In this document: piece after piece, positions 35,429 to 43,732 of the stretch | Layout of the letters: each line of letters starts with the position of its first letter | Numbering within the stretch: the stretch's first letter is position 1 | Assembly (NCBI RefSeq): GCF_020622345.1 | Contig: NZ_JACNMO010000012.1 | Location: 62,001 to 126,000 of the forward strand | Origin: Roseobacter weihaiensis | Lineage (GTDB): Bacteria; Pseudomonadota; Alphaproteobacteria; Rhodobacterales; Rhodobacteraceae | Reading direction: 5' to 3' | DNA: 64,000 bases | Notes under the pieces: model-generated | Database searches by the model: none | Seen by the model: the letters and a program-made list of their open reading frames with translations, nothing else | What the model was told of the DNA's origin: nothing | Translations under genes and position numbers: made by a program

Positions 35429-35734
35429 TCAGCCCTTCATCACGTTGACGTCTTCCACGGCGATGGTGCCGCGGTTGCGGAAGAAACAGACCAGGATGGC
35501 CAGCCCGATCGCCGCCTCCGCGGCGGCAACGGTCAGAACAAAGAGCGTAAAGACCTGCCCAACCAGATCGCCATGGTACCAGGAGAAAGCAACAAGGTTG
35601 ATGTTCACTGCCAGGAGCATCAATTCGATGCTCATCAAGAGGATGATGATATTCTTGCGGTTCAGAAAGAGCCCGAATATGCCAATGACAAGGAGCGTGG
35701 CCGCCACTGTCAAGTAATGTTCCAAACCTATCAT
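35429..35734 (-). CDS. nuoK: NADH-quinone oxidoreductase subunit K
   Basis: A 101-residue three-helix subunit of complex I. The membrane glutamates lie in the [19 protein letters not shown] and [15 protein letters not shown] helices, as in all NuoK. The ATG at 35734 gives the standard length. It is separated from nuoJ by two non-complex-I genes, an unusual break, since nuoJ and nuoK are normally adjacent. Confidence 0.96.
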
Positions 35735-35803
35735 CGTTCTTCCTTTCGAGGCCTGCGCCCCGTTCTTAGTTCCCAATCGTCATCGGCGCGGGGGCCGACC
35801 CAC

Positions 35804-36301
35804 CTAAAGGCTTTCCAGCCTGAATTCTGTCTTGTCGCCCCGCAGATCGGGGTAGAGAGCTGCACAGGCGCAGACCTCGGCTTCCAATGTGAGCTGCGTC
35901 ACATCCCGCGTAAATCTTTCCAGATCCGCTGCCATCCGGTCGAATGTGGCGAAGATGCGTGATCCGCTTTCATGCCGCGCGATCACCTGCAGGGCATCGT
36001 CGATGCGGTCGAATGGCAGACGCGCATTCATGTTTTCCTCCGCCGCCCGAACCCGCAGCGCCGTGCCCGGTCCGCAATCCGCCACCGTGAGATCCGTAGC
36101 GGAGCCTTCCTGAGACCACCAATCCCGCCACATCACGCGGCCCGCGCCCAGATCCCGATGATCCGCCTCGCCGCCGTGGCTGATATGGGTCGTGCGGGTG
36201 CAATCCTCGACAGCCAGCGCCTGCGCACCGCCGGCCCCCCACGACATCAGCAGAATTACGGCTGTCCGCTTTCCTATCCCTGCCCTGCGTTCACGTCTCA
36301 T
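35804..36301 (-). CDS. Hypothetical exported protein between nuoJ and nuoK
   Basis: A 165-residue protein with a basic N-terminus (MRRERRAGIGKRT), a hydrophobic segment (AVILLMSWGAGGAQALA) fitting a signal peptide, and a mature part with four or so Cys (EDCTRTT, ADCGPG, EVCACAALY) that could form disulfides in the periplasm. I do not recognise the family. It begins 19 nt after the microprotein stop and ends 69 nt before nuoK, so it is transcribed with complex I. Function unknown. Confidence 0.65.
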   Translation of the reverse strand: MRRERRAGIGKRTAVILLMSWGAGGAQALAVEDCTRTTHISHGGEADHRDLGAGRVMWRDWWSQEGSATDLTVADCGPGTALRVRAAEENMNARLPFDRIDDALQVIARHESGSRIFATFDRMAADLERFTRDVTQLTLEAEVCACAALYPDLRGDKTEFRLESL

Positions 36302-36320
36302 TTTCTCGTTCTTTCCGGTC

Positions 36321-36401
36321 TCAGGATCGGTTGAAGTATCCGAACGCCGCCAGAATGGCGACGCTGAGGGCGATGAGTATGGCAATCTGGTCTCCGTGCA
36401 T
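36321..36401 (-). CDS. 26-residue membrane microprotein in the nuo operon
   Basis: An 81-nt frame. Its ATG shares a base with the nuoJ stop (TAATG), so translation is coupled to nuoJ. The product has a short hydrophilic start (MHGDQ), about 15 hydrophobic residues (IAILIALSVAILAAF) and the tail GYFNRS: one membrane helix and nothing else. It could be a small accessory helix of the NuoJ/K region. It is below the usual gene-calling size. The coding status rests on the overlap and composition. Confidence 0.55.
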   Translation of the reverse strand: MHGDQIAILIALSVAILAAFGYFNRS

Positions 36402-37003
36402 TACAGGCCCTGCCCCGGTTTGACGTCTTTCAATTCCATCGCTTTCGCCGGGTCGCGCATCATCTGGGCGACCACATCCTGCCGCTTGACGTCAGAGCGG
36501 TGCCGCAGCGTCAGCACGATGGCCCCGATCATCGCCACCAGCAGGATCAATCCCGAAAGCTGGAACAGCAGGAAGTAGTCGTCATAGAGGATCAGGCCCA
36601 AGGCTTCGGTGTTATGCCGGTCCACCGGGATCACCTGCGCGCGCAGGCCTTCGGCGGCGGCATCGCTCTCCCAGGCGCCAAAGGCGATGATGAACTGCAT
36701 CAGGATCACCACCCCGATCAGCAAGGCCAGCGGCATATATTTCGCCATCTCGGCCTTGAGCTCCGCAAAATCCACGTCCAGCATCATCACCACGAAGAGG
36801 AACAGCACCGCCACGGCACCCACATAGACGATGATCAGCAGCATCGCGACGAATTCCGCCCCCAGCAGCACAAAGAGCCCGGCGGCAGACAGAAACGCGA
36901 GGATCAGCCAGAGCACAGAATGCACCGGGTTGCGGCTGATGACCGTAAAGAGGCCCCCCGCAATCACGCTGATGGCAAAAAGATAAAAGGCAAAAACGAT
37001 CAT
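36401..37003 (-). CDS. nuoJ: NADH-quinone oxidoreductase subunit J
   Basis: A 200-residue five-helix subunit of complex I. Family signatures: [40 protein letters not shown] and the [19 protein letters not shown] helix with the pi-bulge. The start overlaps the preceding CMD-like gene by 4 nt (ATGA) and the end overlaps the 26-residue microprotein. Confidence 0.96.
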
Positions 37004-37419
37004 TCTGCGTCCTTTTCTTCGTCCAGAACCTGCTGTGCCAATTCGAGGGCACGCGTCATCGCGGGCAGCCCTGCGAACATCGACATCTGGCCAATGGTCT
37101 CGACGATATGCTGCTCGGTGGCCCCGGCCTCGACCGCGTGGCGCACCGCCTGACGAAAGGCCATATCGTTCTGAGCGCCCTGCATGGTGAGCCCGGCAAG
37201 CGTCAGCAGCATCCGGGTGCGCGCGTCCAGCCCGCCTTCGTTCAGCGTGTTGCCGAACATCATCTCCATCATGTCCTTGGGCATCGTGCCCATCATCTTC
37301 TCGAAGCCTTTGGGCGTGAACGCCTCCATCGCGGGAAAGCTCTTGGCCATCTCCTGCGCCTGGGTCATCATGGTGGCAAAGGGGTTCATCCCCTCAAAGG
37401 GGTTCGGCTTGTCGGTCAT
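37000..37419 (-). CDS. Methionine-rich CMD-like protein, no CxxC
   Basis: A 139-residue member of the carboxymuconolactone decarboxylase-like group, with the [20 protein letters not shown] block of the family. It has no cysteine at all, so it cannot act as an AhpD-type thiol peroxidase. It is strikingly rich in methionine (19 of 139), mostly in the first 65 residues. It is paralogous to the gene just upstream and overlaps both neighbours by 4 nt. The role beside complex I is unknown. Confidence 0.75.
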
Positions 37420-37802
37420 GCGGCCTCCTCAGCCTCGAAGACCTCAAGGGCCGCGTTCAGGGCATTTATCATCGCCGGGAACCCACCATAAAGTGCCATC
37501 TGGTTGATGACCTCCGCCACCTCGCGCTGCGTGGCCCCCGACCGCAGGGCATTCCGGATGTGCACCTTGAGCTGAGGTCCCGTCTGGCCCCCCAAAGCGG
37601 TCAGGGCCGCTACGGTCGTCAGATAACGGGTTTTGTCATCGAGCCCGTCGCGTGTATAGTAATGGCCGAACGCCACCTCCATCATCGTGGTCGAAAACCC
37701 CGGCAGGATCGCGTCATAGCGCGCCGCCAAAGTCTCTTCGATCCCCGGATTGGTGGCTTCTGCCATCGCCTTGCCGCGGGTATAGGCGTCAGACGTGGTC
37801 AT
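37416..37802 (-). CDS. CMD-like protein, no CxxC (first copy)
   Basis: A 128-residue carboxymuconolactone decarboxylase-like protein with [20 protein letters not shown] and [16 protein letters not shown], the conserved helical block. It contains no cysteine. The start overlaps the nuoI stop by 4 nt and the stop overlaps the second copy by 4 nt, so translation through nuoI-CMD-CMD-nuoJ is tightly coupled. The two CMD proteins may form a hetero-oligomer. No enzymatic activity can be assigned. Confidence 0.78.
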
Positions 37803-39603: not shown

Positions 39604-39987
39604 TCACACCGTCGGTATTCCGCTTTCCTGACACGCGGCTACGGTGACTTCGGCGTCGATTGTAGCGCGCCCGGCAGGCAGGGTTGGCGAGATGGTGTAA
39701 ACAGCATCTGCCGCCCACACGCCACCCTCTTTGGTCAAATTTGTGCGCAAATGTCGTGCAAAACCATATCCCCGGTCGCGGGTATACCGCGCGGCCGCAC
39801 ATTCGGCATAGCGCTGCACATCTTTTTGGCTCTGTGCCTTGGTCATCGCCACATTCACCTGCACCAGATCTTCATCCAGCGCGGTGGTCTCAACGCCCAG
39901 ATAATCGGGTATAAAGTCCTCTGCCGTGGGCACCGGTTGCGCACAGGCTGCAAGCGCGAGGGGGGATATCAGCACAAGGCGGGTCAT
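39604..39987 (-). CDS. Hypothetical lipoprotein between nuoG and nuoH (second)
   Basis: A 127-residue protein with a lipoprotein signal ([15 protein letters not shown], Cys15). The mature part has Cys in AECAAARY and VTVAACQES. I do not recognise the family. Its ATG overlaps the stop of the first lipoprotein gene by 4 nt, and nuoH starts 6 nt after it. It would face the periplasm, away from the peripheral arm of complex I. The role is unknown. Confidence 0.7.
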   Translation of the reverse strand: MTRLVLISPLALAACAQPVPTAEDFIPDYLGVETTALDEDLVQVNVAMTKAQSQKDVQRYAECAAARYTRDRGYGFARHLRTNLTKEGGVWAADAVYTISPTLPAGRATIDAEVTVAACQESGIPTV

Positions 39988-40367
39988 TCACACGCCAGCC
40001 TTGGTTTTCGAAAACCCGTCACAATCCAATCGTCGCCCTGCGGCCTGGCCAACAGAGTGTAAACGCACTCCTGAGAATAGGGCTGGTAAGTTGTCGAGGT
40101 CGTCGTCGCTGTTGCCCAGCCGCCCGATCCGTAGATATTGGTCGTGGACGGTGTACTAACAGGGATAACACCAGAGTCAGTGATATTCCACTGGAATGCT
40201 CTTGCTCCGTCTGGCAAATCAAAAACCCCCGATGGTTGGCCGTAGTCAAGCATCGGTTCCGTGATCGAACCACCAACGTAACCCTGCATGACCTGGCTTG
40301 CACAGCCTGAGAGCAAGAAAAAGAAACCAATCAAACCCAAACGGGTCATTTTCATACAACTTGTCAT
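39984..40367 (-). CDS. Hypothetical lipoprotein between nuoG and nuoH (first)
   Basis: A 127-residue lipoprotein: signal [18 protein letters not shown] with lipobox LSGC, then a Ser/Thr/Gly-rich low-complexity centre ([13 protein letters not shown]) and a C-terminal [14 protein letters not shown] block. The ATG at 40367 overlaps the nuoG stop; an ATG four codons later also fits. The DNA is AT-richer than the nuo genes. It resembles small lipoprotein families in which an outer- or inner-membrane anchor is all that is known. Confidence 0.65.
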
Positions 40368-42419: not shown

Positions 42420-42827
42420 TTAGTCGGAGGCGCGCAGCAGCGCCCCTATTTGTGAGTTCTGCGCAATCTCGGCCTGGCCAAGCGCACAGTATCCTTGTTC
42501 ATCCTGGCCCAGATTGCGGGCCGCCATATAGTCCGCCGCGCGGGCGCGCAGCCTGTCCTTTTCGGTATCAGATTCAATATGGGTCCTGATTTCGCTTTCA
42601 CTATACCCCAAGCTGGCCGCTTCGCGCTGCAGATCGCGCAACACCCCAAGGGCGCGGAACAGACGCGCCGATATTGTCGGGCAATTCTCGCGAATCTCAT
42701 GCGCCAGCCCGATGGCGAAAAGCTGGGCGTCAATCTGCGGCACATCGCGCAACGCCGGTTTGGCGAGCACGCCGCCCGGCAGAGATATCCCAAGGGCCAG
42801 CACTGCGCCTGTCATTGCCGCACGCAT
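42420..42827 (-). CDS. DUF5333-type exported protein
   Basis: A 135-residue protein with a signal peptide (MRAAMTGAVLALGISLPGGVLA) and a helical mature part. It fits DUF5333, a family seen inside Rhodobacterales nuo operons, recognised mainly from position, length and the NCPTISARLFRALG pattern. An AGGAGA site lies 5 nt before the ATG. It would act in the periplasm. The function is unknown. Confidence 0.7.
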   Translation of the reverse strand: MRAAMTGAVLALGISLPGGVLAKPALRDVPQIDAQLFAIGLAHEIRENCPTISARLFRALGVLRDLQREAASLGYSESEIRTHIESDTEKDRLRARAADYMAARNLGQDEQGYCALGQAEIAQNSQIGALLRASD

Positions 42828-43231: not shown

Positions 43232-43732
43232 TTACTCCGCTGCAACCGGGGGGCACCGGTTGTCCTTCCACCTGCTGGCCTCTTTCAGATAAGACCACCC
43301 AAAGGCGTGATCGCTGTCGCCGTTTTGCCTCAAGTGCTCAAGCCGCGCCAGCGCCTCGTCCAGCGTCGGCTCATGGCCTTCGGGCACCCACCACATCACG
43401 AAATGCATCTCTCCGAGCACCTCGAACCACTCCTGACGGCGCGCGTAGAACTGCTTGTGGATCGTGCCCCAGACAAACTGCTCCAGCGCCTCGACGCTTT
43501 CCCAAACCGTGAGGTTCGAGACATAGAGCGGATCGCCATCAATGGCGTTTTCCGTATTCCCGGTGCCCGGCGCGCCCGAGCCTTCCATCATCCAGACGAA
43601 CCCCGGCATGCGCTTGCCCAGCCCATTGATCCGGTCGAGGTTCGCCATGAACTCCGCGACACGCGGATCATCCGTTGGGGCGGCAAGGCGGCCTACGTTG
43701 AGTTCGGCGAGGTGTTTGGCGTGTTCAACCAT
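43232..43732 (-). CDS. DUF3291 family protein
   Basis: A 166-residue soluble protein matching DUF3291: LAELNVGRLAAPTDDPRVAEFM, then NLTVWESVEALEQFVW and MWWVPEGHEPTLDEALARLE. The fold resembles the dimeric alpha-beta barrel of ABM-like enzymes. The function is unknown. Its start overlaps the preceding exported-protein gene by 8 nt, and it is one of several non-complex-I genes between nuoF and nuoG. Confidence 0.8.
   Translation of the reverse strand: MVEHAKHLAELNVGRLAAPTDDPRVAEFMANLDRINGLGKRMPGFVWMMEGSGAPGTGNTENAIDGDPLYVSNLTVWESVEALEQFVWGTIHKQFYARRQEWFEVLGEMHFVMWWVPEGHEPTLDEALARLEHLRQNGDSDHAFGWSYLKEASRWKDNRCPPVAAE

Follow-up and report, generated by a model that had tools for sequence, protein, structure and literature searches.

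The 64,000-nucleotide stretch of DNA analysed here (the window) carries an 81-nt open reading frame between the complex I genes nuoJ and nuoK (Table 1). The frame encodes a 26-residue microprotein with a single membrane helix which, together with its relatives, is referred to below as family A. It had been picked out in an earlier note that gave no strand; it is encoded on the minus strand, and the translation of the plus-strand reading of 36321 to 36401 is unrelated to the microprotein. The overlap of its ATG with the nuoJ stop codon was borne out by the sequence, the TAA occupying positions 36403 to 36401 and the ATG 36401 to 36399, with base 36401 common to both. Its placement between nuoJ and nuoK also holds, but the microprotein is not the sole occupant of this interval, as a 166-aa ORF on the same strand precedes nuoK.

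Table 1. Features of the nuoJ-nuoK region, in window coordinates
Feature	Position	Strand	Basis
nuoJ (Nqo10/ND6)	36401..37003	minus	Pfam Oxidored_q3 PF00499, E=1.4e-40; end-to-end alignment with Paracoccus 8qby_J
Shine-Dalgarno-like GGGGCAGGG inside nuoJ codons for PGQG	36408..36416	minus	6 nt before the microprotein ATG
TAATG overlap of nuoJ stop with microprotein start	36399..36403	minus	Sequence
26-aa single-helix microprotein ORF (family A)	36321..36401	minus	ATG start, TGA stop; sequence, conservation, pN/pS
nuoJ-nuoK insertion slot, 666 nt	35735..36400	minus	Coordinates of flanking genes
166-aa ORF, signal-peptide-like start (by eye)	35804..36304	minus	Second ORF in the nuoJ-nuoK slot
nuoK (Nqo11/ND4L)	35429..35734	minus	PF00420, E=2.6e-30; ATG at 35734 read from the sequence

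The closest NuoJ chains in the PDB are 8qby_J and 9g83_J, which have the same sequence but for the start and are both of Paracoccus type. Just upstream of nuoJ lie two adjacent ORFs of the carboxymuconolactone decarboxylase family (PF02627) at 37000 to 37419 and 37416 to 37802 (minus strand, 4-nt overlaps), preceded by an ORF that by eye looks like nuoI. Among the nuo-like genes there are also, at 39604 to 40367, 42420 to 42827 and 43232 to 43732 (minus strand), two 127-aa ORFs without a Pfam match, a DUF5333 ORF and a DUF3291 ORF. A search of Pfam and NCBIfam assigned the 166-aa ORF to no family. It has 285 relatives in the protein collection; among the 120 listed, nearly all names are "hypothetical" or "uncharacterized" and many belong to Roseobacter and Tateyamaria. 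ORFs that resemble it by eye lie directly behind nuoJ in L005 and L009, both of which are without the microprotein.

The 26-aa sequence matched no Pfam or NCBIfam profile, and no description of a nuoJ-nuoK microprotein was found in the literature searched, the scope of which did not extend to older operon papers in subscription journals, where an earlier mention is possible. Nor did the paper titles listed include a ribosome-profiling study of this family. Comparison of relatives revealed purifying selection at the codon level. Nine distinct congeneric sequences gave a pS of 0.517 and a pN of 0.097 (pN/pS 0.187), and 14 sequences from six genera a pN/pS of 0.192; when the alignment columns were shuffled, a procedure that preserves the relatedness of the sequences, none of 300 shuffles was as low in either set (means 0.92 and 0.90). 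Omitted from these counts were L020 (identical to L019) and the divergent L021, L037, L077, L128 and L131; L038 was not among them. The variable columns in the genus set numbered 9, 4 and 21 of 24 at codon positions 1, 2 and 3, respectively. A different frame was rejected as the source of the conservation, the shifted sense frames of family A having a pN/pS of 1.5 to 3.4 and antisense frame 1, despite a ratio of 0.288, being interrupted by stops in 4 of the 9 sequences; the other two antisense frames gave 1.2 and 7.5.

Because relatives recur at the nuoJ-nuoK junction and the pN/pS of 0.19 was unmatched by column shuffles, the frame is a gene and not a product of chance, and it is almost certainly protein-coding. 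It is true that the microprotein is very short and that many ORFs of 20 to 60 aa lie close by, but a chance open frame in GC-rich DNA is extremely improbable in the face of the conservation, the codon constraint and the fixed position, and this reading was rejected. The suspicion raised in the earlier note, that a single-helix gene had been easily overlooked here, is hence supported by both the constraint and the strict nuoJ-nuoK linkage.

This linkage was established with two profiles, A1, built from eight congeneric sequences, and A2, a wider one of 19 sequences. Of 39 related genomes searched with nuoJ, 38 gave a match, and the sequence following the gene was read in the 30 with loci. By profile A1, family A is present in 10 of the 19 genomes of the genus (apparently Roseobacter). 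Searched against 394 genomes of the family, A1 gave 17 matches at E≤0.01, of which 9 were at the nuoJ-nuoK junction; the remaining 8 (E from 2.9e-4 to 6.3e-3), 5 of them read in the sequence, lay inside open frames of 278 to 808 aa and were taken as chance. Profile A2, run against the whole of 394 family genomes, gave 16 matches at E≤0.001. All 14 at E≤1.8e-5 have nuoJ upstream and nuoK downstream, the genetic linkage to nuo genes expected of a complex I accessory subunit, and no copy was found off the junction at that threshold; the other two (L196, 9.5e-5; L197, 7.1e-4) lie away from it. The L196 match, at about 1501 to 1572, is a weak relative, KAGVWIALAIDIACVVLVANGYFMR, that lies near neither nuoJ nor nuoK and shows no standard start codon, and may be a relocated copy, a decayed copy or chance. 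One of the 14 junction copies, that of G201 (L038/L195), no longer has a stop codon, and it and the family A copies of L104 and L126 look decayed.

Family A occurs at the same operon site in about a dozen genera. Of 270 genomes sampled from the class, with no fewer than three besides the window's own belonging to its family, only that of the window itself gave a match at E≤0.001, and a scan of named genome contigs returned three family A loci, all titled uncultured Roseobacter. The conservation across Rhodobacterales put forward in the earlier note as the check on the frame was thus found in part: codon constraint and nuoJ-nuoK linkage are there, but family A is patchily distributed, being carried by 14 of 394 genomes in the family and by 10 of 19 in the genus, and is not general in the order.

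The stop-start arrangement recurs as well. In 13 of the 20 rows listed, the microprotein starts at +2 on the nuoJ stop, and in these 13 loci the stop is always TAA or TGA and never TAG, which other loci use in 25 of 175 cases. Since TAG would destroy the ATG, its absence fits protection of the start codon, although 13 loci are too few for this to be more than a weak indication. A further four rows (L021, L033, L035 and L131) start 91 to 187 nt behind nuoJ and keep the residue pattern. Just before the nuoJ stop, GGGCAGGG is found in 25 of the 32 rows listed, and the GGGGCAGGG run of the window may act as the ribosome-binding signal of the microprotein.

The site itself is an insertion slot in the window's family. 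In 155 family loci, a set with 19 members from the window's genus and 5 that were added because they carry family A, the gap between nuoJ and nuoK has a median of 144 nt and is ≤20 nt in only 10, and the gap between nuoK and nuoL has a median of 5 nt and is ≤20 nt in 139. The median nuoJ-nuoK gap is 120 nt in 162 nuoJ-sampled genera outside the window's genus, and the gap measures −4 to 24 nt in each of the 7 loci that represent other families of the class; all these surveyed nuoJ-nuoK gaps are 3 nt too small, the nuoK query having begun one codon early. The 162 genera comprise 4, 28 and 100 (the next nuoJ rows, some skipped) plus 30 lower-scoring ones, to the exclusion of the 19 and 5 loci above; because they were picked by nuoJ match, the sample leans toward nuoJ genes like that of the window.

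Four micro-ORF families were recognized in the slot of these 162 genera: A in 8 (two apparently decayed), B in 3, C in 7 and D in 27, with any of them in 43, a count that includes weak and decayed matches (the lower D matches are weak, with E up to 0.006) and was obtained with profiles built from members of the same sample or of the window's genus. Examples of family B are L006, L007, L079, L107 and L176; of family C, L120, L140, L148, L157, L175, L177 and L226; and of family D, L091, L116, L123, L136 and L161. Families B, C and D resemble A in being short, single-helix ORFs, carried between nuoJ and nuoK by other genomes of the window's family, but no sequence relation to A is evident by eye. 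Their patterns are MSxxTIIVLVVVLIV..GGYSFLG for B, ..LPLLGxxALVI..VRRRREKKKRFEGR for C and ..SPxGLAAYAAFWAFKLxxGAW for D. Family D co-occurs with family A in L021 and L131, and all 15 of the long members aligned keep a lysine amid their hydrophobic residues (FWxxK). The protein collection contains 34 relatives of family D, which have no Pfam domain and, if they bear a name at all, are called hypothetical or uncharacterized.

The pN/pS was 0.38 for B (4 sequences), 0.27 for C (5 sequences) and 0.55 for D (15 sequences). No column shuffle reached the observed value for B (0 of 200), C (0 of 200) or D (0 of 60, ten sequences), the test for D being narrow, with 0.555 observed in the ten sequences against 0.561 for the lowest shuffle. 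Membrane-like small ORFs were also more frequent on the coding strand of the nuoJ-nuoK gaps of the 162 genera (only gaps of about 60 nt or more were considered), where hydropathy cut-offs of 1.6, 1.9, 2.2 and 2.5 left 39, 19, 8 and 7 loci versus 4, 1, 1 and 0 on the opposite strand. Single-helix-like ORFs of 39 to 41 aa were seen behind nuoK in two congeners (L020, offset 410, and L013, offset 866 behind nuoJ), by which the nuoK-nuoL gap also accepts such ORFs.

The family A peptide has a recurrent design. Small residues (G, A or S) occupy positions 3, 7, 11, 15 and 19 in 19, 18, 19, 19 and 19 of the 19 aligned rows, and there are none at positions 5, 6, 8, 12, 16 and 20. Small residues spaced four apart share one face of a helix and let membrane helices pack closely, and the spacing in family A resembles that of a helix packing closely on another helix. 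This face is no single clean stripe, since positions 13 and 18 also hold small residues, each in 16 of the 19 rows. G21 and F23 are invariant (19 of 19 rows), the peptide ending in G-Y/F-F. In the main group of the family the N-terminus is acidic (mostly D/E-G-D) and the C-terminus basic. Because, by the positive-inside rule, the basic end of a membrane helix faces inside, this suggests that the N-terminus is outside and the C-terminus inside. A divergent subgroup ending in GYFGG, GYFSG or GYFNG is without charged ends, and the topology argument leaves it uncovered.

On account of the strict linkage and the packing pattern, the leading interpretation is that family A is an accessory single-helix subunit or an assembly aid of complex I, close to NuoJ, which, reading from sequence, we consider rather probable. 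A ribosome finishing nuoJ at the TAA would restart on the overlapping ATG, aided by the GGGGCAGGG run supplied by the PGQG codons of nuoJ. The peptide could then insert beside the newly made NuoJ, its acidic N-terminus probably outside and its basic C-terminus inside, and the face formed by G3, A7, A11, A15 and A19 may lie tightly packed against a helix of complex I in the region of NuoJ, NuoK and NuoH. The peptide would then stabilise the membrane arm, as an accessory subunit or an assembly aid, and be non-essential. The absence of family A from 9 of the 19 congeners, which lack it naturally, indicates that it is at most conditionally important.

These nine congeners also bear on the main rival, namely that family A is a real membrane microprotein unconnected to complex I, with the slot serving as a well-expressed landing place endowed with a Shine-Dalgarno-like run and the peptide acting elsewhere, for example on another membrane protein. 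Every one of the nine carries another ORF, of 24 to 379 aa, in the slot, and linkage alone is therefore no proof of a role in complex I; the many unrelated ORFs that the slot holds and the patchy distribution fit the same reading. A free passenger, however, should occur elsewhere too, whereas the junction accounts for all 14 strong matches and the 394 family genomes hold no off-junction copy at E≤1.8e-5, only the two weaker ones at 9.5e-5 and 7.1e-4. A target other than complex I is thus rather unlikely, if still worth weighing.

Much less probable is a translational relay, in which translation of the frame would serve to hold ribosomes on the nuo transcript, or at the membrane, ahead of the downstream genes and the peptide would be incidental. 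The frequent stop-start overlap with nuoJ would suit such a device, but the constraint is residue specific, as seen in the pN/pS of 0.19, the G-Y-F end and the small-residue pattern, and the rows that start 91 to 187 nt behind nuoJ retain the pattern. Slightly more improbable still is that the helix stabilises not complex I as such but a respiratory supercomplex that complex I forms with III or IV: interfaces of this kind contain small helices in other systems, but no observation in this analysis implicates complex III or IV, and the linkage is to nuoJ and nuoK. Respirasomes containing complex I have, for their part, been reported for Paracoccus (PMC8115037).

Profiles A2 (family A), A3 (family D) and A4 (family C) had no significant match when searched against the PDB. 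The four chains matched by A2 at E≤10 included no NDH-1 subunit, and neither NDUFA1 nor any other single-helix supernumerary chain was among them. For chain 5djq_N (36 aa), which we take to be CcoM, the best stretch covered 16 residues, in a segment ending GFGYF (E=0.42), which is no evidence that family A is homologous to CcoM. Matches to photosystem II D1 (ILAAHGYFGR, E=0.29) were taken as chance. With no significant match to a solved chain, family A would at most work like NdhP, CcoM or NDUFA1 and is not assigned to any of these families.

The role of family A would most likely be analogous to that of cyanobacterial NdhP. According to PMC4131877, NdhP and NdhQ of NDH-1L each have one transmembrane segment and a mass below 5 kDa, and NdhP is essential to the formation of NDH-1L. 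They resemble family A as tiny single-transmembrane peptides in a complex I relative; NdhP, however, sits in the distal NdhD1/F1 unit of NDH-1L, and family A is shorter and found only in the window's family. CcoM, a 36-aa subunit of the Pseudomonas stutzeri cbb3 oxidase according to PMC10433244, is like the proposed family A a tiny subunit of a respiratory complex, but of a different one. NDUFA1 is a single helix of the complex I heel that lies in a groove of ND1, comes close to ND6 with one of its regions, and has a role in assembly (PMC8762328); unlike family A, it has an added intermembrane-space domain. The 2.3 Å model of the Paracoccus denitrificans complex I comprises 14 core subunits, NDUFS4, NDUFS6, NDUFA12 and a methyltransferase (PMC11522691), and the available parts of PMC11522691 and PMC8115037 report no extra single-helix membrane subunit. 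In a search for the corresponding Paracoccus junction, six plasmid records with nuoJ were found, none of Paracoccus, and among 73 genomes picked by nuoJ score the best identity was 76%, with no clear Paracoccus genome.

A broader and tentative proposal, possible but short of an even chance, is that complex I of Rhodobacteraceae gains single-helix accessory subunits from the nuoJ-nuoK junction, which would act as their nursery and where at least four unrelated families (A to D) would have been selected as extra helices. The PGQG codons ending nuoJ would provide a ready ribosome-binding run behind which new membrane micro-ORFs might be born or captured. If true, this would be a bacterial, repeatable counterpart of the gain of single-helix supernumerary subunits by mitochondrial complex I.

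Complex I of Alphaproteobacteria serves as a model for its mitochondrial counterpart, and descriptions of it give 14 core subunits and a small number of soluble additions. To these, a helix of 26 residues that is under selection and encoded behind nuoJ, in a slot with a repeated intake of single-helix genes, would add a membrane accessory subunit, and strains with and without family A would form a natural series for asking what such helices do.
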